Source: a virus
Virus record (IMG/VR): IMGVR_UViG_3300048625_000152
Span: 176,494-240,493 of that record
Direction: 5' to 3' (one strand)
Length of the DNA: 64,000 bases
Notes under the pieces: generated by a model
What the model was told of the DNA's origin: nothing
Database searches by the model: none
What the model saw: the letters and a program-made list of their open reading frames with translations, nothing else
Shown: piece after piece, positions 17,390 to 38,183 of the stretch
Position numbering within the stretch: position 1 is the first letter of the stretch
Layout of the letters: every line of letters starts with the position of its first letter
Translations under genes and position numbers: made by a program

Positions 17390-17542
17390 ATGAGTAATCG
17401 AAATTACTTCGAAGATGAGGACCTCATCGAAATTTGCGAGCAGTGCGAAAACTGCTTTCACCCAAATGGCTGCATTAGACAGTGCGCCATTGACAGCTTT
17501 GTGCTAGAAGACGTAGCAATGATCAGAGGCGAAAACAAATGA
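17390..17542 (+). CDS. Cysteine-rich small protein
   Basis: The start at ATG 17390 is set by TAGGAG six bases upstream; the in-frame GTG at 17360 lacks such a site. The 50-residue acidic protein has CEQCENCFHPNGCIRQC, five cysteines and one histidine within 17 residues, probably a zinc or Fe-S site. It overlaps the DNA polymerase start by ATGA, so translation of the two is coupled. No family is recognised. Confidence 0.6.
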   Translation: MSNRNYFEDEDLIEICEQCENCFHPNGCIRQCAIDSFVLEDVAMIRGENK

Positions 17543-21928: not shown

Positions 21929-22554
21929 TGTCTTTAGGTCATCTGATACCTAGAGGATACCGTCCCGGTAGTGGGTTAATATCCCCTACTGGGATTTTCT
22001 ATTTAAGTATCCCCAAGAACGCCAGCACATATATGAGCAATTTGCTGGTTGCCAATGATTGGTGTCACAATGACGTATACAGTCCCGATATTAAGGAATG
22101 TATAGTTGTTCTACGTGATCCAGTTGATCGTTGGCTCAGTGGCTTTGCAACGTATGCAGCTAGCTGGTTGCTCGGGGAAGGATATGGTAGCGATCATTTC
22201 AGGGAAGACTATAATGATCTCACACAGCGAATCATCTTTGATCAAATTGTATTTGACGACCACACCACTGAACAAGTAAAATACGTAGAGCAACTAGGTG
22301 ACCATAAGATTACATTCTTTAAACTCAATTACGAGTTGGGAATGAACTTAGAAAGTTTTTTAGATTGCAAGCTAGGTCTAAATAACCCTATAGCAGATAA
22401 CGCAGGCGAAGACAATTACGATACTAAAATGATTGCCAAGCACATGAGATTCAGAGTAGAACAAGATCCCGTTCTACGTGCTAAGATTATTGCGCGATAT
22501 GCTGCCGACTACGAACTAATTAAAACAGCAAACTATTACAATGAGCCAAGATAA
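21928..22554 (+). CDS. Sulfotransferase-family protein
   Basis: This 208-residue protein has IFYLSIPKNASTYMSNLL, the 5'-phosphosulfate loop (PKxxST) of PAPS-dependent sulfotransferases, and VVLRDPVDRWLSGFATY, the 3'-phosphate site (RDPxxRxxSGF). Both sites are intact. It would transfer sulfate from PAPS to a sugar or other acceptor. A CysC-like P-loop protein at 62927-63349 could help make PAPS. It overlaps the clamp stop and the TGT-like gene. Confidence 0.78.
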   Translation: MSLGHLIPRGYRPGSGLISPTGIFYLSIPKNASTYMSNLLVANDWCHNDVYSPDIKECIVVLRDPVDRWLSGFATYAASWLLGEGYGSDHFREDYNDLTQRIIFDQIVFDDHTTEQVKYVEQLGDHKITFFKLNYELGMNLESFLDCKLGLNNPIADNAGEDNYDTKMIAKHMRFRVEQDPVLRAKIIARYAADYELIKTANYYNEPR

Positions 22555-24235
22555 TTTAACAAGCAAACAAAAAGATTACGCAGTATTCTTGCCAGCTATT
22601 AGCGGCTTCTACGGTACGTTTGTGGGCAAACAGCGTGTTAACAACGACTATGTTGATCCAGCACGTTTCCCGCAAGGACTAACTGACATGGAGCAGATGA
22701 ACTGGCTTAACGATCAAAAGGGCTTGTTCCCGTATAAGTGGAGTCTCTATTCAGGTGGACATGCTAACTTAGATCTCACTAAAGAAGACCCAAGTGAGGA
22801 CATGGTTCGCAAACGTGACCCAAACACTATCCTGCTAGGTGACTCGGGTGGATTCCAGATTGCCAAAGGCTTGTGGGAAGGCGAATGGCGTGATCCTAAC
22901 AGCCAAGAAGTCAAAGACAAAATGGCTGCAATGGTAGCACTAGGTGTAGAAGTTAAGCCGGTGTTAGACAAAGCTGGTAAGCCAGTTATTGGTAAAAAAG
23001 GCCCTAAGACTGTTACTATTGATCATGCTAAAAACTATCAAAATTTAATTGATGCAGCACAAAAGAAGCGCAGTGCGATTCTAACCTGGCTAGATAGTAT
23101 CAGTAACTACGGTATGGGATTAGATATTCCAACTTGGGTTATCCATGACAAGAAGGCCAGCGATGCCTGCGGTATCAAAACCCTCAACGAAGCAGTAGCG
23201 GCCACAAAGTATAACAACGAATACTTTATGGCGCAGCGTAAAGGTAAGAACAACGGCGGTACTAAGTTCTTAAACGTGCTCCAGGGTGACAATCATGACA
23301 GCGCAGAAGATTGGTATCAAGTAATGAAAGAGTATTGCGATCCTGTTAAGTATCCCGATACGCACTTTGATGGCTGGGCAATGGGAGGTCAGAACATGTG
23401 TGACGTACACTTGATCTTAAAACGCCTAGTGGCCCTACGTTACGACAACTTACTACAAGAGGGCAAACATGATTGGATGCACTTCTTGGGCACAAGTAAA
23501 CTAGAATGGGCAGTATTGCTCACAGTCATCCAACGTGCAATTCGTAAGTATGTTAATCCTGCGTTTACTATTAGCTTCGACTGTGCAAGCCCGTTTCTGG
23601 CCACTGCTAATGGACAAGTATATTTTGAAAATGTATTCCCACAGGATGGTAAATGGTCTTATCGTATGGCGCCGAGCGCAGATGATAAGAAGTACGCAAC
23701 CGATACACGTAAGTGGAGTGCCGGTGTAGTTGCAGATGGTATCTACGATAACTGGGAAGACAGTCCACTAAGTGACTTGTTTAAAATGAAAGATATTTGC
23801 ATCTATAAACCCGGCGATCTAAATAAGATTAGCAAGGAGGGCAAAACATCATGGGATAGTTTTAGTTACGCATTGCTTATGGGACATAACGTATGGATGC
23901 ACTTGACTGCGGTACAAGAAGCTAATAGACGATTTGATGCAGGTGAGCATCCAGCAATGATGCGATCAGAAAAGCCGCTTGCGCCTTTCTTTGAAGACAT
24001 TGTTGAAGCTATTTTTGCAGCACCTGATCGCGAAACAGCAGAAGAGATTATCGAAATGTACGGTGGCCCAAATGGTTACTGGACTGAGATTATTGGTACT
24101 CGCGGATTTAAGGGCAAGAAGGCAGTAAGTGCTCGACCAATGTTTGGCAAGCTGTTTATTGTAGAAGATCCAAGCAGCGACGACGACACTGAATTTGACG
24201 AAACAGCATTAGACAACTTAGAGGACACACAATGA
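22541..24235 (+). CDS. dpdA: TGT/DpdA-like guanine transglycosylase
   Basis: The 564-residue protein has a TGT-type barrel with LLGDSGGFQIAKG (D101 of DSGGFQ), FLNVLQGDNHDSAEDWY (the VQGG-like loop), FDGWAMGGQN, WMHFLGTSK and FTISFDCASPF (D347, the likely nucleophile). The CxCxxC zinc site of tRNA enzymes is not seen, and the protein is about 190 residues longer than bacterial TGT. Both features fit phage DpdA proteins, which insert 7-deazaguanines into DNA in place of guanine. FolE, QueD and QueE in the window would supply the base. A tRNA target cannot be excluded. Confidence 0.82.
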   Translation: MSQDNLTSKQKDYAVFLPAISGFYGTFVGKQRVNNDYVDPARFPQGLTDMEQMNWLNDQKGLFPYKWSLYSGGHANLDLTKEDPSEDMVRKRDPNTILLGDSGGFQIAKGLWEGEWRDPNSQEVKDKMAAMVALGVEVKPVLDKAGKPVIGKKGPKTVTIDHAKNYQNLIDAAQKKRSAILTWLDSISNYGMGLDIPTWVIHDKKASDACGIKTLNEAVAATKYNNEYFMAQRKGKNNGGTKFLNVLQGDNHDSAEDWYQVMKEYCDPVKYPDTHFDGWAMGGQNMCDVHLILKRLVALRYDNLLQEGKHDWMHFLGTSKLEWAVLLTVIQRAIRKYVNPAFTISFDCASPFLATANGQVYFENVFPQDGKWSYRMAPSADDKKYATDTRKWSAGVVADGIYDNWEDSPLSDLFKMKDICIYKPGDLNKISKEGKTSWDSFSYALLMGHNVWMHLTAVQEANRRFDAGEHPAMMRSEKPLAPFFEDIVEAIFAAPDRETAEEIIEMYGGPNGYWTEIIGTRGFKGKKAVSARPMFGKLFIVEDPSSDDDTEFDETALDNLEDTQ

Positions 24236-24735
24236 TCAGAGAAGGCCACGAAGAAGTCAAGTTCTTCCAAGGCAAGGAAGTAGAACATACTCCCGCATTT
24301 GGAAAACAAACCCTGTTTGTAGTGGGCATACAGCCATTGGCAGATATTGCACTTAACCTACACGGTGCGGACCATATCTACTTTGGTGCCAATATGAGCT
24401 TTCCGAATCCTGCAATTAACGATCCGGTTTGGAACGATTGGGAAAACATGATTCGTCCGTTTTTGGAAAAAGGATATACTTGTACGCTAGACATTGATGC
24501 TAAATGTGTTGAAGGCCTACTAGAAGGATGTCTATGCGAACATCATAACTTTATTCCGATGATTTCGGTGAAACTGCCGTATTTACAACAGCTAGGTTAT
24601 AATGCTACAATTAAGCTAGACGACAAAGACTTTGCAGCAACTAACCCAGGTGTTTGGTGCCACAGTGTTCACAACCTTATGGATCGAAAAGTATTTACTG
24701 ATTGGTCCAGCTATACGAAAGACGAAACTTTATGA
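24232..24735 (+). CDS. Conserved-type phage protein next to the TGT-like gene
   Basis: This 167-residue protein overlaps the TGT-like gene by ATGA. It begins MIREGHEEVKFFQGKEVEHTPAF and continues TLFVVGIQPL, HIYFGANMSF, TLDIDAKCVEGLLEGCLCEHHNF. The alternating strands and helices suggest a Rossmann-like or alpha/beta fold with several Cys and His (C-x3-LEGCLCEHH). I recall similar proteins in cyanophages but no assigned function. Its tight coupling suggests it works with the transglycosylase. Confidence 0.55.
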   Translation: MIREGHEEVKFFQGKEVEHTPAFGKQTLFVVGIQPLADIALNLHGADHIYFGANMSFPNPAINDPVWNDWENMIRPFLEKGYTCTLDIDAKCVEGLLEGCLCEHHNFIPMISVKLPYLQQLGYNATIKLDDKDFAATNPGVWCHSVHNLMDRKVFTDWSSYTKDETL

Positions 24736-24917
24736 ACAACCTCCGTAAAGAGCAGTTACGTCTTGTGATTGCAGAAATGCGCCCAGACATTTCAGATAGC
24801 GATTTTGAAGCTATGTGGGACGAAATGCAAACTGCATGTACTACTCACTATTCAGACGTAGCAAACGAAGTCATTGACTTACATACCACAACCGACTCAC
24901 AAGGAATTATTAGATGA
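24732..24917 (+). CDS. Small helical acidic protein
   Basis: The ATG at 24732 overlaps the previous stop (ATGA) and is preferred over the in-frame upstream start at 24702. The 61-residue product starts MNNLRKEQLRLVIAEMRPD and is mostly helical with many acidic residues. No family is recognised. It overlaps the following gene by ATGA, in the same operon as the TGT-like gene. Confidence 0.5.
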   Translation: MNNLRKEQLRLVIAEMRPDISDSDFEAMWDEMQTACTTHYSDVANEVIDLHTTTDSQGIIR

Positions 24918-25363
24918 GCCAACGAGACCAAGCACTAGCAGATAAGCGTGAGCGTATCATGCAACGTGCAGACCGACAAATTTGGGTAACCTTCAAGAAA
25001 GAAGGCATTCACAAATACCCAGCAGCAGCAACTGATCCAGCACTAGCAACAGGCGACGAGTACGACGTTTCGTTCCTCGGCCTACCACATCGTCATATCT
25101 TTCACTTCCGTGTATGGATTGACGTGTTTCACAACGACCGCGACATTGAGTTTATCCAATTTAAACGTTGGCTCGAAAACTTGTATGCAGGCGGTACGCT
25201 AGAGCTCAACTTTAAGAGTTGCGAAATGATTGCAGATGATTTGTACACACAAATCAACACAAAGTATCCTGACCGCAGTGTCTGGATTGAAGTTGCCGAA
25301 GATGGTGAGAACGGCGCTTTAATTAAATATGAATCTCACCGCCCACAACTGATTAGTATCTAA
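24914..25363 (+). CDS. T-fold-like protein resembling QueD/PTPS, function unproven
   Basis: This 149-residue protein follows a QueD-like order: strand HRHIFHFRVWIDV, acidic IEFIQFKRWLENLY, helix KSCEMIADDLYTQI, then SVWIEVAEDGENGALIKYE. The KSCEMIADDL and WIEVAEDGENGA elements occupy the places of the PTxExLA and RVWETPxxxA elements of 6-carboxytetrahydropterin synthase. The cysteine/HGH zinc site of true QueD is not visible. It could be a non-catalytic T-fold, a QueF-like enzyme or unrelated. I recall homologues in cyanophages. It sits two genes behind the TGT-like gene. Confidence 0.5.
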   Translation: MSQRDQALADKRERIMQRADRQIWVTFKKEGIHKYPAAATDPALATGDEYDVSFLGLPHRHIFHFRVWIDVFHNDRDIEFIQFKRWLENLYAGGTLELNFKSCEMIADDLYTQINTKYPDRSVWIEVAEDGENGALIKYESHRPQLISI

Positions 25364-25640: not shown

Positions 25641-26048
25641 ATGAGCGCCACAAACGACATGGGCCAAGCAGAATTTGATCTACAACGGGTCATGGATCTG
25701 TTTGATACTGCCCTAATCAGTAAAGATGAGCGTGTAGTAAACGCCCTTCGCAATCTGTTGATGATTGTGGCGCTTACTAACCCCGAAGACGCTGATGCTA
25801 AAGGTGATATCGGTCCGCTACGTGCAATGGAGCGTGATTTGGATGCCGTACACAGTCGCATTCGCGGTCTAGAAGACCAAGTACGCCACATCACCGATGC
25901 ACTATCTCGCAATGAAACTGCTACTCGCTCGTATAACTCATACAACTGGCAACACGCAGTTGACCCATACGCTGATAAATGGCGTCAGAATATGAGCGAT
26001 ATCACCATGCGCGATTACTTAACAAAAATTAACGGAGGTCCTATTTAA
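25641..26048 (+). CDS. Hypothetical helical protein
   Basis: This 135-residue protein has two helices in the first 60 residues and a heptad-like stretch MERDLDAVHSRIRGLEDQVRHITDAL (about 55-80), probably a coiled coil, then a polar C-terminus. No family is recognised. It overlaps the following glycosyltransferase by its last base (TAATG). Confidence 0.5.
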   Translation: MSATNDMGQAEFDLQRVMDLFDTALISKDERVVNALRNLLMIVALTNPEDADAKGDIGPLRAMERDLDAVHSRIRGLEDQVRHITDALSRNETATRSYNSYNWQHAVDPYADKWRQNMSDITMRDYLTKINGGPI

Positions 26049-27226
26049 TGGGCAAGCTATATTACATGGGACTAGAGAGTTACAAAGCTCGCTATACCCT
26101 ACAACTTACAGAATGGAACAAACGTGTGTTTGATCGTCGCGGTGTTGAAGCAGTGTATGTTCCGGGCCTAACACTAGATAACAGTCAAAAGATTGTTACA
26201 GGACAAGTACTGGACGCACACGGTCGCAGCTACTTTGGTATGAGCCAGATTATGAATTTGGTTCGGTTGATGCAACAAGGAGCAGTAACTAAAGATGATG
26301 TTGTATATTTCGAAGACATGTTCCAACCAGGGATTGAAAGCCTACCCTACATCCTTAAACAAATCCCAGAGGCTTCGCGCCCAAGAATCTTTGTTCGTTG
26401 TCTCGCTCAGTCTATTGACCCTGACGATTTCGTACATGTTTGGGGAATGGGTGAATTTATGGGTCACTATGAACGCATGGTGGACAGCTTTGTCGATGGC
26501 GTGTTGGCCACTAATGAAGAAATGGTAATGCACATGAAGATTGCAGGTTGGAAATCACCAATCTACAATATTTCAGGATTGGTGTTTAACACCGAAGAAG
26601 TTCAAGAGCGTGTGGGCAATAAGATTACTCCATGGAATGAGCGTAAGCATCGCGTGGTATTCTCTGCACGTTGGGACCAAGAAAAGCAACCAGATTTTTA
26701 CATGGATGTTATCAAAGCATGGCACGAACGTCATCCTGGTTCGGGAGTAGAGTTTGCTGTTTGCTCGGGTGCTGTTCTTAAAAGCAATAACGATAGCTAC
26801 ATGGAACGTACACGTGGCATGCAGACTGCAGGATTGTTAACCATTTACGAAGACCTAGAAAAGAATCAGTACTATGACATTGTTAATAACTCTCGTGTTG
26901 TATTTAATTGTGCTTTACAAGATTGGGTCTCCAACACTGTCTCCGAAGCTGACGCGTTGGGATGTAATGTACTGTATCCTGCATATCGCTCTTTCCCTGA
27001 AACTTTTGGAAATGATCATACTCGTATGTATGTACCGTGGAGCATTGATGACGCATTAGACAAGCTAGAGAAGTTGCTACAAAAGCCAAGCGAAAACATG
27101 GGCAAGATTAGCGCATGGACTAGCGGTACTGCTGATCGCATTGTTGACATTATTGAAGGCAAAGGCGAACAGTGGTTGCGTATGTCGACTGACTATCGCA
27201 AGCATACACATGAGTCTAAATACTAA
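26048..27226 (+). CDS. GT-B-like glycosyltransferase
   Basis: This 392-residue protein has a two-domain glycosyltransferase layout. The N-terminal half contains VPGLTL and DVVYFEDMFQPG. The C-terminal half contains RVVFSARWDQEKQPDFYMDVI, typical of the start of the nucleotide-sugar domain in family 4-type enzymes. NNSRVVFNCALQDWVSNTVSEADALGCNVLYP follows, the usual acidic E-x-x-A-x-G-x-x-V donor motif. The acceptor is unknown (DNA base, virion or host glycan). GalE and a DegT-like protein follow in the same strand block. Confidence 0.75.
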   Translation: MGKLYYMGLESYKARYTLQLTEWNKRVFDRRGVEAVYVPGLTLDNSQKIVTGQVLDAHGRSYFGMSQIMNLVRLMQQGAVTKDDVVYFEDMFQPGIESLPYILKQIPEASRPRIFVRCLAQSIDPDDFVHVWGMGEFMGHYERMVDSFVDGVLATNEEMVMHMKIAGWKSPIYNISGLVFNTEEVQERVGNKITPWNERKHRVVFSARWDQEKQPDFYMDVIKAWHERHPGSGVEFAVCSGAVLKSNNDSYMERTRGMQTAGLLTIYEDLEKNQYYDIVNNSRVVFNCALQDWVSNTVSEADALGCNVLYPAYRSFPETFGNDHTRMYVPWSIDDALDKLEKLLQKPSENMGKISAWTSGTADRIVDIIEGKGEQWLRMSTDYRKHTHESKY

Positions 27227-29253: not shown

Positions 29254-29842
29254 TAAAATTAAGAAATTTGAAATTGCGTTAGCAGAATTTACCGGCGCAC
29301 CCTATGCAATCATGACCGATTGCTGCACACATGCAATTGAACTTTGTATGAGATATGACAAGGTAGAGTTTTGCGCATTTACCCCATTTACATACTTGAG
29401 TATTCCGATGTTGATGCACAAACTCAATATTCAATATTACTACGAAGTTGGGTCACCTGCACAATGGGTAGGCGAATACAAGTTTCGAAAAACTAGAATC
29501 TGGGATAGTGCTAGACGATTGGAAGAAAACATGTATCATCCGGGGCAAATTCAATGTTTGAGTTTTGGGCACACAAAGCCTTTACATATTGGTCGCGGAG
29601 GTGCTATACTACTAGATGACAAGGCGGCCTATGATGCGTTAATTTTAATGCGCTATGATGGACGCGACCTAAATATTAAACCATGGGAATCTCAGAAAGA
29701 GTTTAGAGTTGGGTATCATTATAAGCCTACACCTGAAGAAGCAGTACAAGGACTTGCATTGCTTGAAGGAGTTAAGGTTAATAAACCCAAACCAGTAACC
29801 GTTGAGTACCCAGACCTAAGAACAATCACTATCAAGGACTAA
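29246..29842 (+). CDS. Short DegT/DnrJ-like PLP aminotransferase
   Basis: The start is probably the GTG at 29246, overlapping the galE stop; a TTG at 29216 is possible. The 198-residue product has FTGAPYAIMTDCCTHAIEL, then LSFGHTKPLHIGRGGAILLDD with the PLP lysine, the core of DegT/DnrJ/EryC1 sugar aminotransferases. It is only about half the family length (a full-size member is encoded at 57424), and the C-terminal small domain is missing. It may be a minimal enzyme, a scaffold, or decayed. Confidence 0.65.
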   Translation: MFDKIKKFEIALAEFTGAPYAIMTDCCTHAIELCMRYDKVEFCAFTPFTYLSIPMLMHKLNIQYYYEVGSPAQWVGEYKFRKTRIWDSARRLEENMYHPGQIQCLSFGHTKPLHIGRGGAILLDDKAAYDALILMRYDGRDLNIKPWESQKEFRVGYHYKPTPEEAVQGLALLEGVKVNKPKPVTVEYPDLRTITIKD

Positions 29843-29843
29843 A

Positions 29844-30545
29844 ATGACAGATACAAGTAAAAACTTATCACAAGTTATTCGCGACAAGATGCGAGCAGAC
29901 AATAAACGCTTTTGGGCAGGCGACAACATTAGTGAGTATGTTGGCGAAGAAGAAAAAGAATCATTGATTAGCGAAGCAGCAGAAGCATTTGAAAAAGTAC
30001 TTGACACACTATTGATTGACCGTGAAAATGATCCGAACTCAAAAGGCACAGCAAGGCGTCTTGCAAAAATGTACTACAACGAAATTATGGCTGGGCGGTA
30101 CGATGCGAGCCCTAGCGCAACTGCGTTTCCCAATGATAGCGATGGCGCATACGACGGAATGTTGGTTGTGCGCAGTGAGCTTAAGAGCATGTGTAGCCAT
30201 CATCACCAACCTGTTACAGGTGTGGCTTACATTGGTATTATTGCTGGACAGAAACTCATCGGATTATCGAAGTATACCAGGATTGCGCAGTGGTGCGCAA
30301 GACGTGGAACACTACAAGAAGAACTGTGTATGGACATCGCTCGTGAGATTGAACTTGCAACTGGATCACAGGACGTTGCAGTTTATATTCAAGCTACCCA
30401 CGGGTGTTGTGAGAATCGTGGTATCATGGCTCACTCTAGCCTTACTCAGACCACAGTACTACGCGGAGCCTTTAAAGAAGACGCAAGCGTAAAGAAAGAG
30501 TTCTTTGACAACATCAAATTGCAACAAGAGTTTGCACCACGCTAA
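29844..30545 (+). CDS. folE: GTP cyclohydrolase I (FolE)
   Basis: This 233-residue protein has the FolE core: MCSHHHQPVTGVAYIGI with C117 and the following histidines that bind zinc, LIGLSKYTRIAQWCARRGTLQEELCMDIAREI, and ATHGCCENRGI holding the second zinc cysteine. It converts GTP to 7,8-dihydroneopterin triphosphate, the first step to 7-deazaguanine and to folate. The presence of QueD and QueE on the same strand points to the deazaguanine use. It starts after the short DegT-like gene with one base between. Confidence 0.95.
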   Translation: MTDTSKNLSQVIRDKMRADNKRFWAGDNISEYVGEEEKESLISEAAEAFEKVLDTLLIDRENDPNSKGTARRLAKMYYNEIMAGRYDASPSATAFPNDSDGAYDGMLVVRSELKSMCSHHHQPVTGVAYIGIIAGQKLIGLSKYTRIAQWCARRGTLQEELCMDIAREIELATGSQDVAVYIQATHGCCENRGIMAHSSLTQTTVLRGAFKEDASVKKEFFDNIKLQQEFAPR

Positions 30546-30554
30546 GGAAACAAC

Positions 30555-30770
30555 ATGAACGCCGCAGACATGACAACAGCACTGATCAATCGTGCAAAGG
30601 TATTAAACGAGTTTATGGTCACAACTGAAATGCCTAGTGACTTTAGATTTAACGGTATGGTACCATTTGATATGCAAATTAAAGATGGTATTATTTACGC
30701 ACATGTCTGGGGCGTAGACTTTGACGAAGCGTGTATGCGTTTAGATCAATTTTTAGACACCTGCAAGTAA
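30555..30770 (+). CDS. Small hypothetical protein
   Basis: This 71-residue protein follows AAGGAAACAAC. It is predicted as two helices (ALINRAKVLNEFMVTTE) and a strand-helix end (GIIYAHVWGVDFDEACMRLDQFL). No family is recognised. It sits directly between folE and a cupin-like gene, so it may be part of the deazaguanine operon only by position. Confidence 0.5.
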   Translation: MNAADMTTALINRAKVLNEFMVTTEMPSDFRFNGMVPFDMQIKDGIIYAHVWGVDFDEACMRLDQFLDTCK

Positions 30771-30778
30771 AGCCAACT

Positions 30779-31237
30779 ATGAAGCAGTGGATTCTCAACT
30801 GGCTTGAAGCACACGGTCGCAAACGTATTGTTATGGACCGTGTAAACAACGAACCCTATTTAGAGCGTTACTATGTATTTCTTAAAGACCGTGAGAATTT
30901 CCCCTTTAACATTTTTCTGCACAAGTTTCTTAAGTCAGATCCCGATGACGTGCATGATCATCCTTGGAATTACCGAACTCTTATCTTAAAGGGCGGGTAC
31001 TGGGAATGGCAACCTCAGTTTAACAGCAAGGGTCACAAGATTGGCGAGATTGCAACATGGCGTGGTGCTGGATCATTCCGTAGTGCAAAAGCCAATAGCT
31101 ATCATCGCATTGAGCTTGATCCCAGTATTGAATGTTGGACACTGTTTATGCCAGGTCGTAAGCGTCGCGAATGGGGATTCCTTAGTAAAGGCACATGGAT
31201 ACAATGGCAAAAATATCTAGCAAGCAGATCACAATAA
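30779..31237 (+). CDS. Cupin-like phage protein
   Basis: The ATG at 30779 follows the previous gene by eight bases. The 152-residue protein has DDVHDHPWNYRTLILKGGYWEW and GSFRSAKANSYHRIELDP followed by CWTLFMPG, a cupin-type double strand roll with candidate metal histidines (HDH, then H in SYHRIEL). I recall this as a conserved phage family. It could be a metal-dependent enzyme or binding protein; context places it between FolE and a Rieske oxygenase, but no substrate can be named. Confidence 0.6.
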   Translation: MKQWILNWLEAHGRKRIVMDRVNNEPYLERYYVFLKDRENFPFNIFLHKFLKSDPDDVHDHPWNYRTLILKGGYWEWQPQFNSKGHKIGEIATWRGAGSFRSAKANSYHRIELDPSIECWTLFMPGRKRREWGFLSKGTWIQWQKYLASRSQ

Positions 31238-31542
31238 TGAACGGATCCTATCCTGTAGACTTGTTTGAGCTTACAGAAGAGGCAGCTGAGTACCTACGTG
31301 CTCGTGGAGCAGTTATCCCGAGTAGCACAACGTCGTGGGGCACTGTATCCTATCTAGTGCAGTTCCCTGGGTGCAAGCCTAGTTATAGCAACCGCGCCGG
31401 TGGCAATACAGGTACTAGAGTATTCTTTCCAGACGAAGACACTATCCTGATGTTTAGCATAGTATACGGGCACCTAATACAGAATTGTAGAATTGAGTCT
31501 ATCATGGACATGATCATTAACGAACGGATACTTAAACAATGA
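31237..31542 (+). CDS. Hypothetical protein, deazaguanine region
   Basis: The start chosen is the ATG at 31237, which overlaps the cupin stop (TAATG). An in-frame ATG at 31204 lies inside the upstream gene. The 101-residue product contains VSYLVQFPGCKPSYSNRAGGNTGTRVFFPDED and a C-terminal helix. No motif is recognised. It overlaps the following gene by four bases. Confidence 0.45.
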   Translation: MNGSYPVDLFELTEEAAEYLRARGAVIPSSTTSWGTVSYLVQFPGCKPSYSNRAGGNTGTRVFFPDEDTILMFSIVYGHLIQNCRIESIMDMIINERILKQ

Positions 31543-31877
31543 TTGCACTACCACCAGGATGCACTGTAACCTATGCAGTATGGATTGACGTTAAGGAAAT
31601 GACTACTGAACTCATTGAGTGGTGCGAGCTAGTTGGCGGCCGTAAGAAAGTTGACAGCTATTACAATCACCGTGGCAACAAAATAGATAAAGAGTACATT
31701 GCATTTGGTAAAGCCAAGTGGTGCCACTATCATCAAAACGGCACCGGTGGTATCCGCATACACTTTCACGGAGATGATGCTTCAACAGCAAGCATGTTCT
31801 TGCTCAAGTTCATGGATAATGTAACTGCACATAATTTAAAAGAAGTACAAGATAGAGTAGAACATGGATTTGTTTAA
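31539..31877 (+). CDS. Hypothetical protein, deazaguanine region
   Basis: This 112-residue protein overlaps both neighbours (ATGA at the start). It has YAVWIDVKEMTTELIEWC, a repeated histidine stretch KAKWCHYHQNGTGGIRIHFHGDD, and a C-terminal helix. The HYHQ/HFHGDD clusters could bind a metal. It ends inside the first codons of the Rieske oxygenase gene, which suggests coupled translation. Confidence 0.45.
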   Translation: MIALPPGCTVTYAVWIDVKEMTTELIEWCELVGGRKKVDSYYNHRGNKIDKEYIAFGKAKWCHYHQNGTGGIRIHFHGDDASTASMFLLKFMDNVTAHNLKEVQDRVEHGFV

Positions 31878-32685
31878 AGGACCGGTGCCAAGACTTTTTG
31901 GGCACAAGGATAGTTTAAAAGATAATAAGTTTTTTGCATCTAACAAGTTTGTTATTAACCAACAGTTCGAAGCATTTACTAACATCTGTCCGCATCGCGG
32001 ATTTCCTATTTTGCAGCCAGCTGGCGTTGCAGATAATATGCGTTGCGAGCTACATGGCTGGCAATGGAACGATGACGGAACGCCTACTAATAACTCGGCA
32101 TGTTTAAAGCCCCGTAATCTTACAGTTGGCAAAAGTGGGCTGATGTTTATGGACTGGCAGGAACCCTCTGACGCAAAATGGGTCAATGACTTGGCTAACG
32201 ATTCGTTTACCTATAGTCACAGTACACGCAGAACAGGAACCGGTGACTGGAAGTGGCAAATGGAAATGCACGTGGATCTGCTACACGTTGACAAGATTCA
32301 CCCATTGCTAACTAGTTACGTAGACATACACAAGTTGCAAACTGAATACGGTAGTGATTGGGTTTGTCAGCACCATGAACACGGATGGTGGCTATTCATT
32401 TACCCATTCACTCATATCGAGTGGGAACCAGGATGCTTGTACTTTAGCGAAATGGTACAAACCGACTATGGGTATGAAGTATACATCCATTACTTGTTTA
32501 ATGAGTCTACTCCGCAGCATGTGCGAGAAAACTTTATTAAGGTAGCAGAAGTCACATTTGACGAAGACGTAGATGCAGTTAATCGGCTATCGCTAAACAA
32601 TAAATACAGAACACCATCAAAAACTCTCGACCCACTAGAAGTAGACATCAAGCACTTCTATGATTGGTATAAAGCAAACACCTAA
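31864..32685 (+). CDS. Rieske-type non-heme iron oxygenase 1
   Basis: This 273-residue protein has ICPHRGFPIL (C42, H44) and RCELHGWQW (C61, H64), the [2Fe-2S] Rieske ligands, then DWKWQMEMHVDLLHVDKIHPLL, the D-x2-H-x4-H motif of ring-hydroxylating oxygenases (D138, H141, H146), and DEDVDAV for the third iron ligand (233-235). Both redox domains are therefore complete. It would hydroxylate or demethylate a substrate with electrons from a host reductase. It sits between FolE and QueD, so a deazaguanine or modified DNA base is a possible substrate; this is inference. Confidence 0.82.
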   Translation: MDLFKGPVPRLFGHKDSLKDNKFFASNKFVINQQFEAFTNICPHRGFPILQPAGVADNMRCELHGWQWNDDGTPTNNSACLKPRNLTVGKSGLMFMDWQEPSDAKWVNDLANDSFTYSHSTRRTGTGDWKWQMEMHVDLLHVDKIHPLLTSYVDIHKLQTEYGSDWVCQHHEHGWWLFIYPFTHIEWEPGCLYFSEMVQTDYGYEVYIHYLFNESTPQHVRENFIKVAEVTFDEDVDAVNRLSLNNKYRTPSKTLDPLEVDIKHFYDWYKANT

Positions 32686-33578
32686 TGTACTGTAGAAACA
32701 ACTGGCTCACTTATTCGTTTGGCGGAAATCCTCGCCGTATTCGTGATGAGGATTTAACTGTACAATTCACAGAGCAAGCAGATAAGATACTGCCACTGGA
32801 AGAAATAGCTATTTCAACTGCCAAGGAAATCTATGCAATGTACCCAAATATCTACGTTGCACTTAGTGGTGGTTGCGATAGCGAATATGTAGCAAAGAGC
32901 TTTAAAGCTGCTGGAGTCCCGTTCAAAGCCATTATGATGACTTGTAAAGGTTATCTCATGATTGGCGAATGGTACGCCGATAAGTGGTGTGCTGAAAATG
33001 ATGTTGAACTTATTAAGTTTGAAGTAGACCCGTTTGAATTTATAGATTACGGTAAGCGCACAGTAGGAAGAATTAAAGGTATCAGTTGGTTCGGCGCAAC
33101 TGTTAACTTAGTAGCCAATGAAGTTGAACGTCTAGGTGGATACTTAGTAACTGGCGCATTACCATCATATTACCCTGATCCAAAATTGCGACTTGTTAAA
33201 GCAGATCGTGAATTTGCGGAAACTTTTCGTGGGTTTATGTTTGACGAGAGCGATTTCTATATAGAGATAGTAAACCCAAACAAGCACCCGTGGGCTTTCT
33301 TTTATTGGTCTCCGGAAATGCTTGCAAGCGTAATTTATCATTGGGACACTTCTCAGCCTGTTGAGGATAACAAATGGCGTCTGTTTGATTTGCTGCCTCG
33401 TCCTAAGCTAACCGGGTGCGAGTTCTTTACTCATAACTATATAGCCAAGACTATCCCCGAGTATAACGATTTGTTTAAATGGGCACACGCACATGTACCA
33501 TTGAATTGGGGTGCCAGAGATTTTGCTCCATGCCCTGATAGAGAAGAATTTTTAAAAATACTATGTCGCACTCAGTAA
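32685..33578 (+). CDS. PP-loop ATP-pyrophosphatase-like protein 1
   Basis: The ATG overlaps the Rieske stop. The 297-residue product carries VALSGGCDSEYVAKSF (SGGxDS at 61-66), the PP-loop of N-type ATP pyrophosphatases that adenylate a substrate before amidation, thiolation or cyclisation. The CxxCxxC zinc site of QueC is not visible. HPWAFFYWSPEMLAS (about residues 203-217) is shared with the next two genes. It may fill the QueC place, but the family assignment (asparagine synthase-, PAPS reductase- or QueC-like) is open. Confidence 0.62.
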   Translation: MYCRNNWLTYSFGGNPRRIRDEDLTVQFTEQADKILPLEEIAISTAKEIYAMYPNIYVALSGGCDSEYVAKSFKAAGVPFKAIMMTCKGYLMIGEWYADKWCAENDVELIKFEVDPFEFIDYGKRTVGRIKGISWFGATVNLVANEVERLGGYLVTGALPSYYPDPKLRLVKADREFAETFRGFMFDESDFYIEIVNPNKHPWAFFYWSPEMLASVIYHWDTSQPVEDNKWRLFDLLPRPKLTGCEFFTHNYIAKTIPEYNDLFKWAHAHVPLNWGARDFAPCPDREEFLKILCRTQ

Positions 33579-34417
33579 CGATCAATGCTGGACACAGTAA
33601 CTGGTATTCAGTTACATTAATAGCAGTCGAGCACCCTAGGTTGTCAACAGTTAGTATGAGCTTTAATCACACAGAGGTCATCGATACATTAACATTCCAT
33701 GAGGCCGCCGATTATACTGCTAAGTTAATTAATGATCGATGTAGCAATCTCTACTTAGCAATGAGCGGAGGCCTTGATAGTGACTATGTTGCTGAAGTAT
33801 TATTCCGAAACGGTATCTCGTTTACTCCAATAATTGCAATAACGCCAGACAACGTTGAAACTCATTGCGCATTACATTGGTGCAAACTACACAACATAGA
33901 ACCAGTTATACTCACCTTTATTGAGAATGATCCAAGGCTGGTACGCCAGTTTAGATTAATTGCAAAAGACCTGAAGCAAGTGTCGGGGCTAACTAACATA
34001 GTATCCTACTTAGCTGAATACGTTAGCAACAAAGGCGGCCAACTGTTAGTGGGCGATAGTCCAATCGGGGCTCACACTGATGACTACTATCAGCCAGCTG
34101 GGGAGATATTCGACATTGAGTGGTTTTCGTTTATTACCGAGTTTATGCAGCCCGGCGTACATCCTGGCGCATTTTTCCAATATACACCAGAGCTGTTCCT
34201 TGCAATAGCAAAGTCGCTTAATGTCAACGTAAGCGAATCTGCAGGCAAGGCTGAATTGTATAGTCTTCCGTACAAACCCAAGGACACGAATCCAACACTA
34301 CCAATTTCGTTAGCAGTTAGGAAACAGTTAGCGGAATTTGCAGGCGTAGGTATGTATAGTTTCTTCCCTGCACTCACGTGGCACAAAGACCAATTGATTA
34401 AGTTACTGTTGAGATGA
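33563..34417 (+). CDS. PP-loop ATP-pyrophosphatase-like protein 2
   Basis: This 284-residue paralogue overlaps the preceding gene by 16 bases. SGGLDS is at residues 68-73, preceded by AADYTAKLINDRCSNLYLA and followed by VLFRNGISFTPIIAI. HPGAFFQYTPELFLAIAKSL recurs near residue 196. It is closest to protein 3 by eye (shared AADYTA, SGGLDS, FTP, HPGAFF). Tandem copies may form a hetero-oligomer or have split substrates. Confidence 0.62.
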   Translation: MSHSVTINAGHSNWYSVTLIAVEHPRLSTVSMSFNHTEVIDTLTFHEAADYTAKLINDRCSNLYLAMSGGLDSDYVAEVLFRNGISFTPIIAITPDNVETHCALHWCKLHNIEPVILTFIENDPRLVRQFRLIAKDLKQVSGLTNIVSYLAEYVSNKGGQLLVGDSPIGAHTDDYYQPAGEIFDIEWFSFITEFMQPGVHPGAFFQYTPELFLAIAKSLNVNVSESAGKAELYSLPYKPKDTNPTLPISLAVRKQLAEFAGVGMYSFFPALTWHKDQLIKLLLR

Positions 34418-35262
34418 AAATTGGACACAATGAGTGGGCATCTATTAACTTAGAAAATAATAGCCCCGGGAATATAACATCACCGTTTGCATTTGAAACA
34501 ACTGCGACCCCGGCGGTAATGTCATTTGATGATGCTGCTGATTATACTGCACAGTTGGTTGCAGACAAGTACGCCAACCTGCACCTGTGTTTAAGTGGCG
34601 GCCTTGATAGCGAGTTTGTGGCTAAAGTGTTAGTTAGAAACAGTATCGCGTTCACTCCGGTGATAGTGGCTGCTGACTATGTTGAATCAGAGAATTGGTA
34701 TGCTTATAAATTCTGCCAAGATAATAACCTAACCCCGCTAGTATTAGATTTTAGCGGGAAAGAAAAGCATACTGAATTAGTTAAAATGCTTATTGCACAT
34801 GCCCATAAACATTGTTTGCCATTTGACCGTTCTTTGATTGTAAACATTGTTGCAGACTTACTGCCCAACGCCTGTGTATTAACAGGGTACGGCGATCCGG
34901 TTCATGTTTCATCTACTTTTTACGAACCCATTGGCGACCTAGTTGAGTTAACTGACCACGATTATTTTTTAGATGTGGTACACGGATCTAAGCATCCCGG
35001 TGCATTTTTCTCATACACTCCCGAATTATTTGCTGCACTGGTTAGGGAGCTTGACACAACTAAGAACACCCAAATAGCAAAAGCTGACTTGTATGGTATT
35101 CTCTGCAGATCAAAAATACAATCATCCTTTTTCAACTTTTACCAATTGCCCGAACTTGAATTTATTATTAAAAAGAGTTTGAGTAAGTTAGGTAAAAACC
35201 CAGAGCACCAAGCGTTCTTTATAAATAGAGATACACTACTCAATAAGTTCAGCGGCCTTTAG
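34414..35262 (+). CDS. PP-loop ATP-pyrophosphatase-like protein 3
   Basis: This 282-residue protein overlaps protein 2 by ATGA. SGGLDS (61-66) sits after AADYTAQLVADKYANLHLCL; FFSYTPELFAALVREL appears near residue 195. All three share the motif order and length, showing gene triplication inside this operon. The substrate is unknown. It ends before a gap with an RBS-covering hairpin ahead of queD. Confidence 0.62.
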   Translation: MKIGHNEWASINLENNSPGNITSPFAFETTATPAVMSFDDAADYTAQLVADKYANLHLCLSGGLDSEFVAKVLVRNSIAFTPVIVAADYVESENWYAYKFCQDNNLTPLVLDFSGKEKHTELVKMLIAHAHKHCLPFDRSLIVNIVADLLPNACVLTGYGDPVHVSSTFYEPIGDLVELTDHDYFLDVVHGSKHPGAFFSYTPELFAALVRELDTTKNTQIAKADLYGILCRSKIQSSFFNFYQLPELEFIIKKSLSKLGKNPEHQAFFINRDTLLNKFSGL

Positions 35263-35291
35263 AGCATCATCCCGCTATACAAATTCTGCTG

Positions 35292-35314
35292 CCTATGCTA
35301 AAATTTAACATAGG
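35292..35314 (+). promoter_or_regulatory. Hairpin overlapping the queD ribosome binding site
   Basis: CCTATG (35292-35297) pairs with CATAGG (35309-35314); the second arm covers the start of AGGAG (35312-35316), the Shine-Dalgarno of queD. It may lower translation when folded. The stem is short and its stability is uncertain. Confidence 0.35.
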
Positions 35315-35323
35315 AGAATAAGC

Positions 35324-35824
35324 ATGACGACACCCGTTCAATACAAATATACAAGTACTAAAGAGTACCATAACGCATTTCCTGTTGCATACAGACAATG
35401 GCGTGCTGACTCGCACTGCAATAAGATTCACGGCTACGCATTTAGCATGAAGTTCTATTTTGGAACTAATGACCTAGACGTTCGTAACTGGGCCGCTGAT
35501 TACGGTGGACTTAAAGAACTAAAGAAGACACTCGAAGATCAATTTGACCACACTCTTATCGTTGCACAAGATGATCCAGAAATGGAGACATTCAAACTGC
35601 TACAAGAGAAGGGCATGGCCAAGATTGTTGTGTTGCCTGCACTAGGATGCGAAGCACTAAGTGACATGCTGTACAAGTATGTGAATGGTGTTTACATTCC
35701 AGAAATGTGGGGCCCACATGAAGCAGCTCGTTTGTGGTGTTACCGCGTGGAAGTTCGTGAAACACAAAGCAACATGGCATACCGTGACGGCCACCGTGAA
35801 TGGAATGAAGACCTATTTGCGTAA
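35324..35824 (+). CDS. queD: 6-carboxytetrahydropterin synthase-like (QueD)
   Basis: This 166-residue protein has EYHNAF (H16), ADSHCNKIHGYAF with C32 as catalytic cysteine and H36, acidic DYGGLKELKKTLEDQFDHT, CEALSDMLYKYV and VEVRET (catalytic Glu). This is a PTPS/QueD T-fold. The usual HGH zinc motif reads HGY, a variant I associate with a phage/alphaproteobacterial QueD subfamily. It makes 6-carboxytetrahydropterin from dihydroneopterin triphosphate, between FolE and QueE. It overlaps the next gene. Confidence 0.88.
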   Translation: MTTPVQYKYTSTKEYHNAFPVAYRQWRADSHCNKIHGYAFSMKFYFGTNDLDVRNWAADYGGLKELKKTLEDQFDHTLIVAQDDPEMETFKLLQEKGMAKIVVLPALGCEALSDMLYKYVNGVYIPEMWGPHEAARLWCYRVEVRETQSNMAYRDGHREWNEDLFA

Positions 35825-35981
35825 ATTTTGGCATCTATGGGCTAAGGCCCTAGGAGAAAAAGCAGGCAGCTCGGATGCAGAAGCAGACCGTATTGCCTGC
35901 ATTCGAACTGCCATCGTAATGTGCTACGTCATAACCAACTGCTTTATTGTAGCGGGCGTGATAAAGCATTGGAATCAATGA
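35805..35981 (+). CDS. Small membrane protein
   Basis: The ATG at 35805 lies in the end of queD (20-base overlap) and is preferred over a longer frame whose first 40 residues would read through queD. The 58-residue product, MKTYLRKFWHLWAKALGEKA, then SDAEADRIACIRTAIVMCYVITNCFIVAGVIKHW, has one transmembrane helix. The pattern KALGEKxxxxDxEADRIAxIRT resembles small membrane proteins I recall from marine phages. Its function is unknown. Confidence 0.6.
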   Translation: MKTYLRKFWHLWAKALGEKAGSSDAEADRIACIRTAIVMCYVITNCFIVAGVIKHWNQ

Positions 35982-36826
35982 TGTTTAAAAATATACCAAA
36001 AATCTATGCGCATAAGTCTGCGATGAGCGCAGGCAACTTTGTTACGCCCGAAGTTATTCTCAATCAAGGCACAGACACAGTTGCTAATTTGTTTCATAGA
36101 TTTTGTCCGCATCGCATGTACCCAATGCACTCACCCGGAGAAGTAGTACAAGAAGTCTATTGTAAGTTTCATGACTTTAAATGGGCAGTAGACGGTACAC
36201 CATTAAACAATCCCAAGAAACTAACCTGCGGAACTGCACAAGTTGGGCGTAGTGGGTTAGTGTTCAAGGACTTTGTGGAACCCGATCATTCATGGGTACA
36301 AGACCTAGCTGCTGAAGATGCGCTGGAATATAGCCACAGTTGCAAGGGTACGAGCAAGGGTAGCTGGCTTTGGTTAATGGACGCAGAAGCAGACCTGTTG
36401 CACGTACATCAAAATGGTATCCATCCATTCTTGTCAAAGCAAGTGGACTTAGGTGACATCCAGATGGACCAAGGTGATGGCTGGATCTTGCAAACACATC
36501 CTACTGGTTGGTGGTTGTATATTTTCCCGTTTACGTTTGTTGAATACGGGCGTGACGGAATGGTTATGGTTAATACTGTTATTCCACATGACATTAAGAG
36601 CGAATACGGGTTTGACTGGATCACACAATTCTATTACAATAGCAATGCAAGTGCCGACAGACGGTTTATCTTTGAGACACTAGAAACAGTGTTCAAAGAA
36701 GATGTTGCTACTGCTGAATTACAAAAAGGCAATTACTTTCCATTAATGAAAGCCATGAACCGATACGAAGACCATTGCGTACACTTTGGCAAATGGGTAA
36801 GGGATAACAAGATTAAAGATGAATAA
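35978..36826 (+). CDS. Rieske-type non-heme iron oxygenase 2
   Basis: The ATG at 35978 overlaps the preceding stop (ATGA). This 282-residue paralogue of the gene at 31864 has RFCPHRMYPMH (C43, H45) and VYCKFHDFKW (C62, H65), then WLMDAEADLLHVHQNGIHPFL. The second iron site reads D139, H142, H144 and H149, with a two-residue insertion relative to the first enzyme. FKEDVATAEL carries the likely acidic ligand. Both copies keep every Rieske ligand, so both look functional, probably on different substrates. Confidence 0.8.
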   Translation: MMFKNIPKIYAHKSAMSAGNFVTPEVILNQGTDTVANLFHRFCPHRMYPMHSPGEVVQEVYCKFHDFKWAVDGTPLNNPKKLTCGTAQVGRSGLVFKDFVEPDHSWVQDLAAEDALEYSHSCKGTSKGSWLWLMDAEADLLHVHQNGIHPFLSKQVDLGDIQMDQGDGWILQTHPTGWWLYIFPFTFVEYGRDGMVMVNTVIPHDIKSEYGFDWITQFYYNSNASADRRFIFETLETVFKEDVATAELQKGNYFPLMKAMNRYEDHCVHFGKWVRDNKIKDE

Positions 36827-37112
36827 ACAACAAGAAATTATGGACATCCTGCAAGAAGAATGTGCAGAAGTAATCCAAGCAGTTAGTAAAGCCCGTCGAT
36901 TTGGCCTAGATAACTCTCACAAGTCTGGTAAGACACAGCGAGAGAATCTAGAAACAGAGATAGGTGATGTGCTTTGCATGATTGAACTGCTAAACGAGCG
37001 CGGAGTGATTGACGCTGCTAGCGTACAAGCTGCTATCCTTGCCAAGCGAGAAAAGCTACACCACTGGTCAAATATTTTTAAGGACGACTCATGCACCCCA
37101 ACATCGAAGTAA
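36819..37112 (+). CDS. mazG: MazG-like nucleotide pyrophosphohydrolase
   Basis: This 97-residue protein has LQEECAEVIQAVSKARRFG and ENLETEIGDVLCMIELL, the EExxE...ExxD metal site of MazG/all-alpha NTP pyrophosphohydrolases. It hydrolyses nucleoside triphosphates to monophosphates and pyrophosphate; in phages it may clean non-canonical nucleotides or alter signalling nucleotides. It overlaps the Rieske gene by 8 bases and the following gene by 22 bases, so it is in the deazaguanine operon. Confidence 0.82.
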   Translation: MNKQQEIMDILQEECAEVIQAVSKARRFGLDNSHKSGKTQRENLETEIGDVLCMIELLNERGVIDAASVQAAILAKREKLHHWSNIFKDDSCTPTSK

Positions 37113-37309
37113 AAGAATTTACAGTTAAGGACGAAACTGCGTTCCGTATGCGAGTGCGTATGTGGAAATGCACTAGTCCCACTGACCTAAATAGCTTAGA
37201 GATTATTCAAGAATGTATGCGCGACGGAGAAGTTGACTTCACTAGCACATACAATTTTCTAATGACAGACGAAGAACTAAAAACACTAGCACAAGGATTG
37301 ATGAAATAA
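37091..37309 (+). CDS. Small hypothetical protein
   Basis: This 72-residue protein overlaps mazG by 22 bases. It has VKEFTVKDETAFRMRVRMWKC (strands), then a helix IIQECMRDGEVD and a C-terminal helix MTDEELKTLAQGLMK. No family is recognised. It is followed immediately by queE, so co-translation with it is likely. Confidence 0.5.
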   Translation: MHPNIEVKEFTVKDETAFRMRVRMWKCTSPTDLNSLEIIQECMRDGEVDFTSTYNFLMTDEELKTLAQGLMK

Positions 37310-37310
37310 T

Positions 37311-38183
37311 ATGTTTGGAACAAATGAAATTATTGGTAAGAAGTATTTTAAGGATGCTCCGGCAGACAGCTTGTTTGTAACTAGCATGTTCTTTACACTG
37401 CAAGGCGAAGGCCCTTATGCAGGTATGCCCGCATTGTTTATTCGATTGGCTAAATGTAATCTAGTATGCAGTTTTTGTGATACATTTTTTGATGACGGCG
37501 ATTGGATGACTTACGATCAAATCGAAGGCAAAATGTATGCAGCTATCAACGACTATTGGAACAAGCAAGGTAAAGCAACACCAACATGGGCAAACAATGG
37601 TTTAAATAACTATCCCGGTGTTGTGTTAGTAATGACTGGCGGCGAACCGCTCCTGCAGGAGAACATTAGTGCATTTATGGCACGTCAACTTGCACATTTC
37701 AAGGCAGTTCAAGTCGAAAGTAACGGCATTCCTGTTACTGATGTTCCTGTTGGTGTAACGCTAGTGTGTAGCCCTAAGTGTGCCGAGAAAGATGGTAAAG
37801 CTACCAAATACTTTGCGCCGTCGGCAACTATCTTGCAACGTGCAGACTGTTTGAAGTTTGTTATGAGTGCAGATGCAGACAGTCCGTATAACAGCGTACC
37901 GCAGTGGGCACATGACTGGAAAGTAGCAACAGGCAAAGAGATCTATTGCAGCCCAATGAACGTGTACAACAGTTTCCCACAGAAGATCAAATTGCTTCGT
38001 GCAGAAAAAGGCAACATCACAATGGCTGAACGCAGCACAGTTGATGAAGTTATCAGCTTCTGGGAACCGGGCTTGTTAGACTTGAAGGCCAACCAGGCCA
38101 ACCATGAATACGCTGCACACTATTGCATTGAGCATGGGTTCAAACTCAACCTGCAAATGCACTTATATGCGAGCCTAGCATGA
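37311..38183 (+). CDS. queE: 7-carboxy-7-deazaguanine synthase (QueE)
   Basis: This 290-residue radical SAM enzyme has AKCNLVCSFCDTFF, C-x3-C-x2-C (C49, C53, C56) for the [4Fe-4S] cluster, the N-terminal FFTLQGEGPYAGMPALFIRL typical of QueE, and VMTGGEPLLQ for SAM binding. It converts 6-carboxytetrahydropterin to 7-carboxy-7-deazaguanine (CDG). With FolE and QueD it completes the CDG path; no recognisable QueC follows in the window. It ends in an ATGA overlap with the next gene. Confidence 0.93.
   Translation: MFGTNEIIGKKYFKDAPADSLFVTSMFFTLQGEGPYAGMPALFIRLAKCNLVCSFCDTFFDDGDWMTYDQIEGKMYAAINDYWNKQGKATPTWANNGLNNYPGVVLVMTGGEPLLQENISAFMARQLAHFKAVQVESNGIPVTDVPVGVTLVCSPKCAEKDGKATKYFAPSATILQRADCLKFVMSADADSPYNSVPQWAHDWKVATGKEIYCSPMNVYNSFPQKIKLLRAEKGNITMAERSTVDEVISFWEPGLLDLKANQANHEYAAHYCIEHGFKLNLQMHLYASLA

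Follow-up and report, generated by a model that had tools for sequence, protein, structure and literature searches.

The window analysed here comprises 64,000 nucleotides of IMG/VR virus record IMGVR_UViG_3300048625_000152 (positions 176,494–240,493 of the record), and positions 29844–38183 of it form a single plus-strand operon. The operon opens with FolE, GTP cyclohydrolase I (29844..30545; PF01227, E = 4.9e-40; PDB, 3.4e-25), which is followed by p71 (30555..30770; recurrent, 13 loci), a cupin of the 'cysteine dioxygenase' family phrog_4786 (30779..31237; 8e-41), p115 (31204..31542; recurrent, 10 loci) and p112 (31539..31877; recurrent, 21 loci). The ORFs p71, p115 and p112 have no assigned function, and p112 is often found immediately 5' of PP-loop or Rieske genes. 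Next come Rieske1, the catalytic subunit of a Rieske non-heme iron oxygenase (31864..32685; PF00355, 2.8e-9), and three tandem PP-loop ATPases, namely PPa (32685..33578; SGGCDSE), PPb (33563..34417; SGGLDSD; 35% identity to PPc and 26% to PPa) and PPc (34414..35262; SGGLDSE), the last lying immediately 5' of QueD. QueD, a CPH4 synthase of the phage HGY subfamily (35324..35824; PF01242, 2.5e-15; phrog_2389, 1.5e-35), precedes a second oxygenase, Rieske2 (35981..36826; PF00355, 1.3e-5; 34% identity to Rieske1), whose start is most likely 35981 rather than 35921. The operon ends with a MazG-type NTP pyrophosphohydrolase (36819..37112; PF03819, 2.4e-8), p72 (37091..37309; no assigned function and no Pfam match) and QueE, the radical SAM 7-carboxy-7-deazaguanine synthase (37311..38183; phrog_2076, 7.8e-47; PDB QueE, 4.7e-11). 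These matches bear out the initial annotation, which had placed FolE, QueD and QueE in one operon with two complete Rieske oxygenases, three PP-loop ATPases, a cupin-like protein and MazG. Its description of the genes as overlapping holds from the cupin through PPc, where successive genes overlap by 1–34 nt (1 nt between Rieske1 and PPa), but not ahead of QueD and Rieske2, where there are gaps of 61 and 156 nt, respectively.

A second contig (G001, 354 kb) carries the block at 100% identity, and G002 (321 kb) carries it at 78–100%, so it is not an accident of assembly. In G002 the Rieske2 cassette is cleanly missing and QueD overlaps MazG. Across related loci the cargo carried between FolE and QueE is highly variable. 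The cupin is a general phage gene (98 phage records) and MazG is irregular, being present in only some clusters, so neither was retained as a module member. QueD has HGY where HGH is expected; as the QueD proteins of Iggy, ACP17 and R5C have the same, this zinc-site oddity was dropped as a hint of new function.

A DpdA-like DNA guanine transglycosylase candidate of 564 aa (22541..24235, plus strand) lies outside the interval initially annotated, 5.6 kb upstream of the operon. It has homologues in PA5oct-group, Phosso and Vibrio 2.275.O phages, and in PA5oct-type phages the homologue lies upstream of QueE. Its TGT-like motifs (DSGGFQ...QGD...GWAMGG...HFLG...ISFDCAS) are in register with a TGT-like protein of ACP17 (hhalign probability 69, E = 4.5e-5); searches of Pfam, NCBIfam and PDB returned no TGT match. 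Directly after it, and like the two genes described next also on the plus strand, lies p167 (24232..24735), a conserved protein without assigned function that is present in all 41 DpdA loci with 5 kb downstream and has a 32% homologue within the ACP17 cluster. Equally constant (41 of 41 DpdA loci each) are p149 (phrog_17812; 24914..25363), a small QueD-like protein, and a glycosyltransferase (26048..27226; Glyco_trans_1_2, E = 2.7e-4, below the cut-off) that is part of this phage group's core set. The former has a weak QueD-like motif at its C-terminus and is a candidate DpdL-like CDG decarboxylase; homologues occur in the PA5oct group, Phosso, ACP17, BUCT-ZZ01, phiST and other phages, and the phiST cluster contains no annotated QueC. 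The glycosyltransferase has homologues in BUCT-ZZ01 (64%) and ACP17 (24%), and p149 adjoins it in both.

Both Rieske proteins are complete oxygenases, and in Rieske1 numbering the Rieske cluster ligands C42, H44, C61 and H64 (CxH...CxxH) and the residues of the 2-His-1-carboxylate iron site with its bridging Asp (D138, H141, H146, D235) are invariant among 33 sequences. The structural model of Rieske1 (pLDDT 94.5) matched CntA in Foldseek (3.6e-13), and judged by this model the family appears closest to the N-acting CntA (carnitine) and stachydrine N-demethylases. It shares their fold and the expected metal ligands, but the phage protein is only ~18% identical, is shorter (273 aa) and has no reductase of its own that we could find. 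No Fer2 or NAD_binding_1 domain of a cognate ferredoxin or reductase was detected in 23 phage records, and the redox partner could be supplied by the host. A genome scan for a bacterial source of the family yielded only short Rieske-domain matches at five loci, and INPHARED phages contained no relatives of Rieske1 or PPa.

The three PP-loop proteins gave almost no signal against Pfam (PPa alone matched PF03054, E = 0.0065, below its cut-off). All three contain SGGxDS, of which S61, G62, G63 and S66 are invariant over 68 relatives, and PPa modelled with AlphaFold (pLDDT 87, pTM 0.90) shows the Rossmann-type fold of an N-type ATP pyrophosphatase, in agreement with the class initially assigned. 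Foldseek matches of PPa were TtuA and LarE as well as beta-lactam, carbapenam and asparagine synthetases; the sulfur-transferase TtuA ranks equal to the amide synthetases, which weakens the case for ligase chemistry. Profile comparison favoured NH3-dependent NAD synthetases (1.9e-11; asparagine synthetase, 1e-3) over TtuA-type and LarE-type enzymes. K241 is present in 67 and R239 in 58 of the 68 relatives (R-P-K motif), and K241 may correspond to Lys443 of beta-lactam synthetase, the catalytic Lys in the R-x-K motif after the synthetase domain. The near-invariant C102 is the sole near-conserved Cys among the relatives, and PPa–c contain no CxxC pairs.

Rieske and PP-loop genes form a real, conserved module. 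Each of 34 distinct viral Rieske proteins is encoded no more than 1.2 kb from a PP-loop gene, and for 30 of them the distance is at most 300 bp. Half of these pairs (17/34) are located within deazaguanine clusters, usually in the order Rieske–PP–QueD, and a PP-loop gene is immediately upstream of QueD in 27 of the 33 clusters that have one. The other 17 pairs were found with no deazaguanine genes nearby; fatty-acid desaturases accompany them at 10 of 17 loci, often as an island, and acetyltransferases at some. The Rieske tree implies seven changes between the two contexts, and the module has therefore moved into or out of the cluster repeatedly. Cluster-linked PP-loop proteins mostly group together, apart from those of the islands, with four context changes over 76 sequences. 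The tie to the deazaguanine pathway suggested by the initial annotation thus stands as regards a conserved module that often adjoins QueD, but the module is not an obligate part of the pathway: PP-loop genes were present in 5 of 80 QueD-retrieved and 8 of 80 DpdA-retrieved loci, and Rieske genes in 3 of 80 and 4 of 80, respectively. Since most related loci have deazaguanine genes without the module, we regard the pair as optional cargo. The co-occurrence check proposed at the outset gave FolE and QueD in all six Rieske records over 150 kb, yet six records selected through their DNA polymerase all had QueD as well. With QueD general in the lineage, co-occurrence at the genome level carries no information, and it was rejected as evidence.

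Known phage 7-deazaguanine DNA modification of the DpdA type relies on DpdA with FolE, QueD, QueE and QueC, as in phages 9g, CAjan and Iggy (PMC6884629). The present phage likewise combines FolE, QueD, QueE and a DpdA-like gene in one dsDNA phage, and this giant phage very probably has a pathway of this type. It differs in that its DpdA candidate is of a very diverged type, its operon includes two Rieske oxygenases and three PP-loop ATPases, and p149, p167 and the glycosyltransferase are constant companions. That oxygenases and PP-loop proteins lie outside the usual deazaguanine set was correctly anticipated; the literature searched contained no report of a Rieske oxygenase, or of the recurring Rieske–PP module, paired with this pathway. 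A further difference is the absence of canonical QueC, which was not found in G000 (the window's own phage), in G001 or in any of the 47 records searched (PF06508: none in the window's phage and fragmentary matches only in relatives), and which in the searched set is also missing from relatives without PP-loop genes. QueC is dispensable for the dDG and dCDG forms and needed for preQ0-derived forms.

We infer the activity of the DpdA-like protein, the substrate of the module, the order of steps, the product and its role as follows. FolE, QueD and QueE supply 7-carboxy-7-deazaguanine (CDG); this compound, or one derived from it, would be put into DNA in exchange for guanine by the DpdA-like enzyme. 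The PP-loop proteins would activate a carboxylate by adenylation and couple it to an amine, in the manner of QueC and the phage ligase CmoY on their own substrates, the simplest candidate being the 7-carboxyl group of CDG or that of dCDG in DNA; the Rieske oxygenases would oxidise or dealkylate the resulting substituent via host redox partners. The resulting amidated and oxidised 7-deazaguanine would hide phage DNA from host nucleases. QueC belongs to the same ATPase class and acts on CDG (PMC13329287); the phage proteins share with it the N-type ATP pyrophosphatase class, SGGxDS and, in our proposal, the carboxylate activated, but as a separate family they lack a PF06508 match and its zinc-site motif C(x)8CxxCxxC (PMC13329287). 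There is precedent for an AMP-forming PP-loop ligase that uses a base-borne carboxyl group as its handle: CmoA–CmoX–CmoY of Synechococcus phage S-B43 makes 5-carboxymethylcytosine and then its glycine amide, CmoY being the ligase that joins glycine to the carboxylated base in DNA (PMC12783734). Here, the carboxylate would instead be on 7-deazaguanine, and a Rieske oxygenase is added. No CmoX-type C5-cytosine methyltransferase (PF00145) was present in the 20 records searched, and 5-carboxymethylcytosine was rejected as substrate on this ground. That an accessory module of amide-forming ligase and oxygenase decorates deazaguanine at its 7-substituent has, in our estimate, close to an even chance; amidation of the 7-carboxyl by at least one PP-loop ligase, followed by Rieske oxidation of the added group, with a sugar also possible, is put forward more tentatively.

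The core may instead make plain dDG, via p149 as a DpdL-like CDG decarboxylase, or dCDG, with the Rieske–PP pair being metabolic cargo that occupies a variable position ahead of QueD and acts not on DNA but on a lipid, sugar or small molecule of the host, an explanation to which we give substantial, if minority, weight. Should p149 decarboxylate CDG, the main product would no longer have the carboxyl handle; p149 accompanies all 41 DpdA loci and occurs in phiST. The lack of QueC in PP-less relatives points the same way, as does the variety of cargo between FolE and QueE, because of which location alone is weak as evidence. As the same pair also occurs away from deazaguanine genes, in half of all cases and many times in desaturase islands, it could act throughout on some other substrate. 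Against mere cargo, however, the repeated context changes involve the same slot adjoining QueD, the operon genes overlap tightly, and the PP-loop proteins of deazaguanine clusters mostly group with one another rather than with those of islands.

Two other roles for the PP-loop proteins appear improbable. As plain QueC replacements, converting CDG to ADG/preQ0 with the Rieske enzymes incidental, they would account for the missing QueC in 47 records, their position beside QueD and their shared ATPase class; yet most relatives with FolE, QueD and QueE have no PP-loop gene, for which reason this was rejected as the main idea, and three divergent copies in one phage are unneeded for a single step, the CxxC zinc motif of QueC (PMC13329287) is lacking, and the Rieske gene nearly always has a PP-loop gene beside it. 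Sulfur transfer of the TtuA, LarE or MnmA kind, thiolating a base or tRNA, is similarly doubtful: TtuA and LarE are among the top Foldseek matches and C102 is near-invariant, but this single Cys, the lack of CxxC pairs in PPa–c and the preference of the profile comparison for NAD synthetases all argue against it.

On the tailoring reading, which we prefer, the DNA of the phage may contain a new base with additional decoration, in line with the hypermodified base considered plausible in the initial annotation. Eight 7-deazaguanine forms, all simple, have reportedly been described in phage DNA (Cui 2023), and we know of no Rieske oxygenase that acts in DNA modification. If true, the proposal would provide the first such oxygenase and add a class to the known 7-deazaguanine bases, and would offer a defined gene set, in a large phage group (at least about 600 stretches), for assigning enzyme to base. 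A portable oxygenase–ligase module beside QueD would mean that phages diversify deazaguanine much as they do pyrimidines, which would give them new routes past restriction enzymes.

All genes that the initial annotation had placed in one interval, namely FolE, QueD, QueE, two Rieske oxygenases (Rieske1, Rieske2), three tandem PP-loop ATPases (PPa, PPb, PPc), a cupin and MazG, were present on the plus strand at 29844–38183, in the order FolE, p71, cupin, p115, p112, Rieske1, PPa, PPb, PPc, QueD, Rieske2, MazG, p72, QueE (p-numbers denote small proteins without assigned function). Its description as an overlapping-gene operon held from cupin through PPc, where neighbouring genes overlap by 1–34 nt, but not for QueD and Rieske2, which are preceded by gaps of 61 and 156 nt, respectively. 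The source virus record has 240.5 kb (window positions 176494–240493); the block recurs identically on a 354 kb IMG/VR contig and in similar form on a 321 kb contig. The latter lacks Rieske2 and its QueD directly overlaps MazG, which identifies Rieske2 as a cassette. Upstream of the interval are DNA polymerase (17539–20208), a DpdA-like protein (22541–24235), p167, p149 and a glycosyltransferase. We class the operon with the DpdA-type deazaguanine systems, as a variant carrying an accessory module of putative substrate.

Family matches were obtained for FolE, QueD and QueE. QueD (35324–35824) has HGY in place of the HGH zinc motif, and a further zinc ligand position is occupied by Tyr; phages Iggy, ACP17 and R5C likewise have HGY in their QueDs. 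Searches of Pfam, NCBIfam and PDB gave no TGT match for the DpdA-like protein. Its homologues occur in PA5oct-type phages (there upstream of QueE), Phosso and Vibrio 2.275.O, and it aligned in register with a TGT-like protein of ACP17 over DSGGFQ, QGD, GWAMG, HFLG and ISFDCAS (probability 69, E 4.5e-5); we take it as a putative, diverged DpdA. Canonical QueC was not found in this phage or the two related contigs, and a search over 47 records gave only partial PP-loop-type or C-terminal matches. Sequence reading alone assigned a sulfotransferase-like protein (21928–22554) just 5' of the DpdA-like gene. In some clusters (L056, L060, L102, L200, L151) the FolE–QueE interval holds phosphoribosyltransferase genes or a YhhQ-like protein (preQ0 transporter family, assigned from sequence).

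The PPa model (pLDDT 87, pTM 0.90) matched TtuA, beta-lactam synthetase, carbapenam synthetase, LarE, NAD synthetase and asparagine synthetase best in Foldseek (~3e-6 to 1e-4), and the family profile ranked NH3-dependent NAD synthetases (1.9e-11) before thiolase (5e-4) and asparagine synthetases (1e-3). Unlike QueC, PPa–c lack any CxxC. SGGxDS, E67, A98 and C102 are conserved, as is K241, which 67 of 68 sequences have within an R-P-K motif; the R-P-K of beta-lactam synthetase, containing its catalytic Lys443, is a candidate counterpart and a lead only. Rieske1 (pLDDT 94.5) has all eight expected metal and bridging ligands invariant and is nearest to carnitine monooxygenase CntA and stachydrine demethylase (1e-13 to 1e-12). 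Fer2 and NAD_binding_1 domains were found in none of 23 records searched, so the host would supply the electrons.

IMG/VR scans retrieved 22 Rieske and 51 PP-loop loci; by our own profiles, the only Rieske locus without a PP-loop gene was an edge fragment. Of 34 Rieske proteins (near-duplicates dropped, later loci added), all have a PP-loop gene no more than 1.2 kb away and 30 have one within 300 bp; 17 lie 6 kb or less from FolE, QueD or QueE. Clusters with PP-loop genes most commonly had the order (HIT gene)-(Rieske)-PP-QueD, and 27 of the 33 had PP directly 5' of QueD; where PP is missing, a gene labelled HIT-family from sequence most often occupies this slot. Queries independent of the module (QueD and DpdA, 80 loci each) recovered PP in at least 5 and 8 loci and Rieske in at least 3 and 4, respectively, many loci being incomplete and these rates thus minima; Rieske without PP never occurred. 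Even so, the module is optional. Among 19 additional large records drawn from scans with QueD, DpdA and the polymerase, a clear Rieske was present in one.

The PP-loop ATPases QueC and CmoY activate a base carboxylate for amide formation (PMC12783734; PMC13329287), CmoY doing so on DNA (PMC12783734). The FolE/QueD/QueE route terminates at a carboxylic acid, 7-carboxy-7-deazaguanine (CDG). In the simplest reading, PPa–c may attach one or more amines to CDG or to dCDG already in DNA, after which the Rieske enzymes would oxidise or dealkylate the group so added. We hold this reading tentatively, as a plausible account; that the Rieske-PP pair is unrelated cargo is possible, if somewhat less likely. 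Literature searches, which mostly did not cover subscription papers, found none that links Rieske oxygenases to deazaguanine or to DNA modification in phages, which does not establish novelty.

The proposed co-occurrence was seen, FolE and QueD being present in all six Rieske records >150 kb, but is uninformative per genome because polymerase-selected records carry QueD equally (6/6); the informative signal is position within the operon only. With the window's own relatives left out, 4 of 19 Rieske loci were in-cluster, a rough binomial giving P = 0.006 if the cluster makes up 4% of the genome and P = 0.06 if 8%; this support for clustering is weak, and incomplete contigs restrict the test. 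The Rieske tree (n = 34) required seven switches between deazaguanine-cluster and other contexts; in the PP tree most cluster-linked proteins formed one large group, with four context changes only. Fatty-acid desaturases accompanied the pair at 10 of 17 non-cluster versus 0 of 16 cluster loci, and GNAT acetyltransferases at 4 of the 17; other non-cluster neighbours were 2OG oxygenases, further PP-loop proteins and, once, an acyl carrier protein with its synthase, several labels being read from sequence. With such neighbours, the pair is either a general tailoring module on more than one scaffold or acts on a non-DNA target in both contexts. Phage islands L108 (4188–13983), L114 (5772–15714), L120 (5893–12336) and L003 (1397–17884) hold desaturases, GNATs, 2OG oxygenases, B12-type radical SAM proteins, PP-loop proteins and Rieske, with the acyl carrier protein and synthase in L108, a lipid- or natural-product-like gene set.

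The glycosyltransferase (26048–27226) was present in 41/41 DpdA loci of the group, has homologues adjoining p149 in BUCT-ZZ01 (64%) and ACP17 (24%), and is followed by a nucleotide-sugar epimerase (28270–29253) and a DegT-like aminotransferase fragment (29216–29842); the deazaguanine base may possibly carry a sugar. p149 (24914–25363, phrog_17812) complicates the amidation reading. It occurs in each of the 41 DpdA loci that extend far enough downstream; its carriers among catalogued phages are PA5oct-type phages, Phosso, ACP17, BUCT-ZZ01, phiST and a small number of others. p149 has a QueD-like C-terminal motif. The phiST cluster has no annotated QueC, and phiST DNA reportedly carries dDG. DpdL is a CDG decarboxylase, and p149 is a candidate DpdL-type enzyme. 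If p149 decarboxylates CDG, phages of this group may have plain 7-deazaguanine as their baseline base; the Rieske-PP module would then supplement this route or compete with it.
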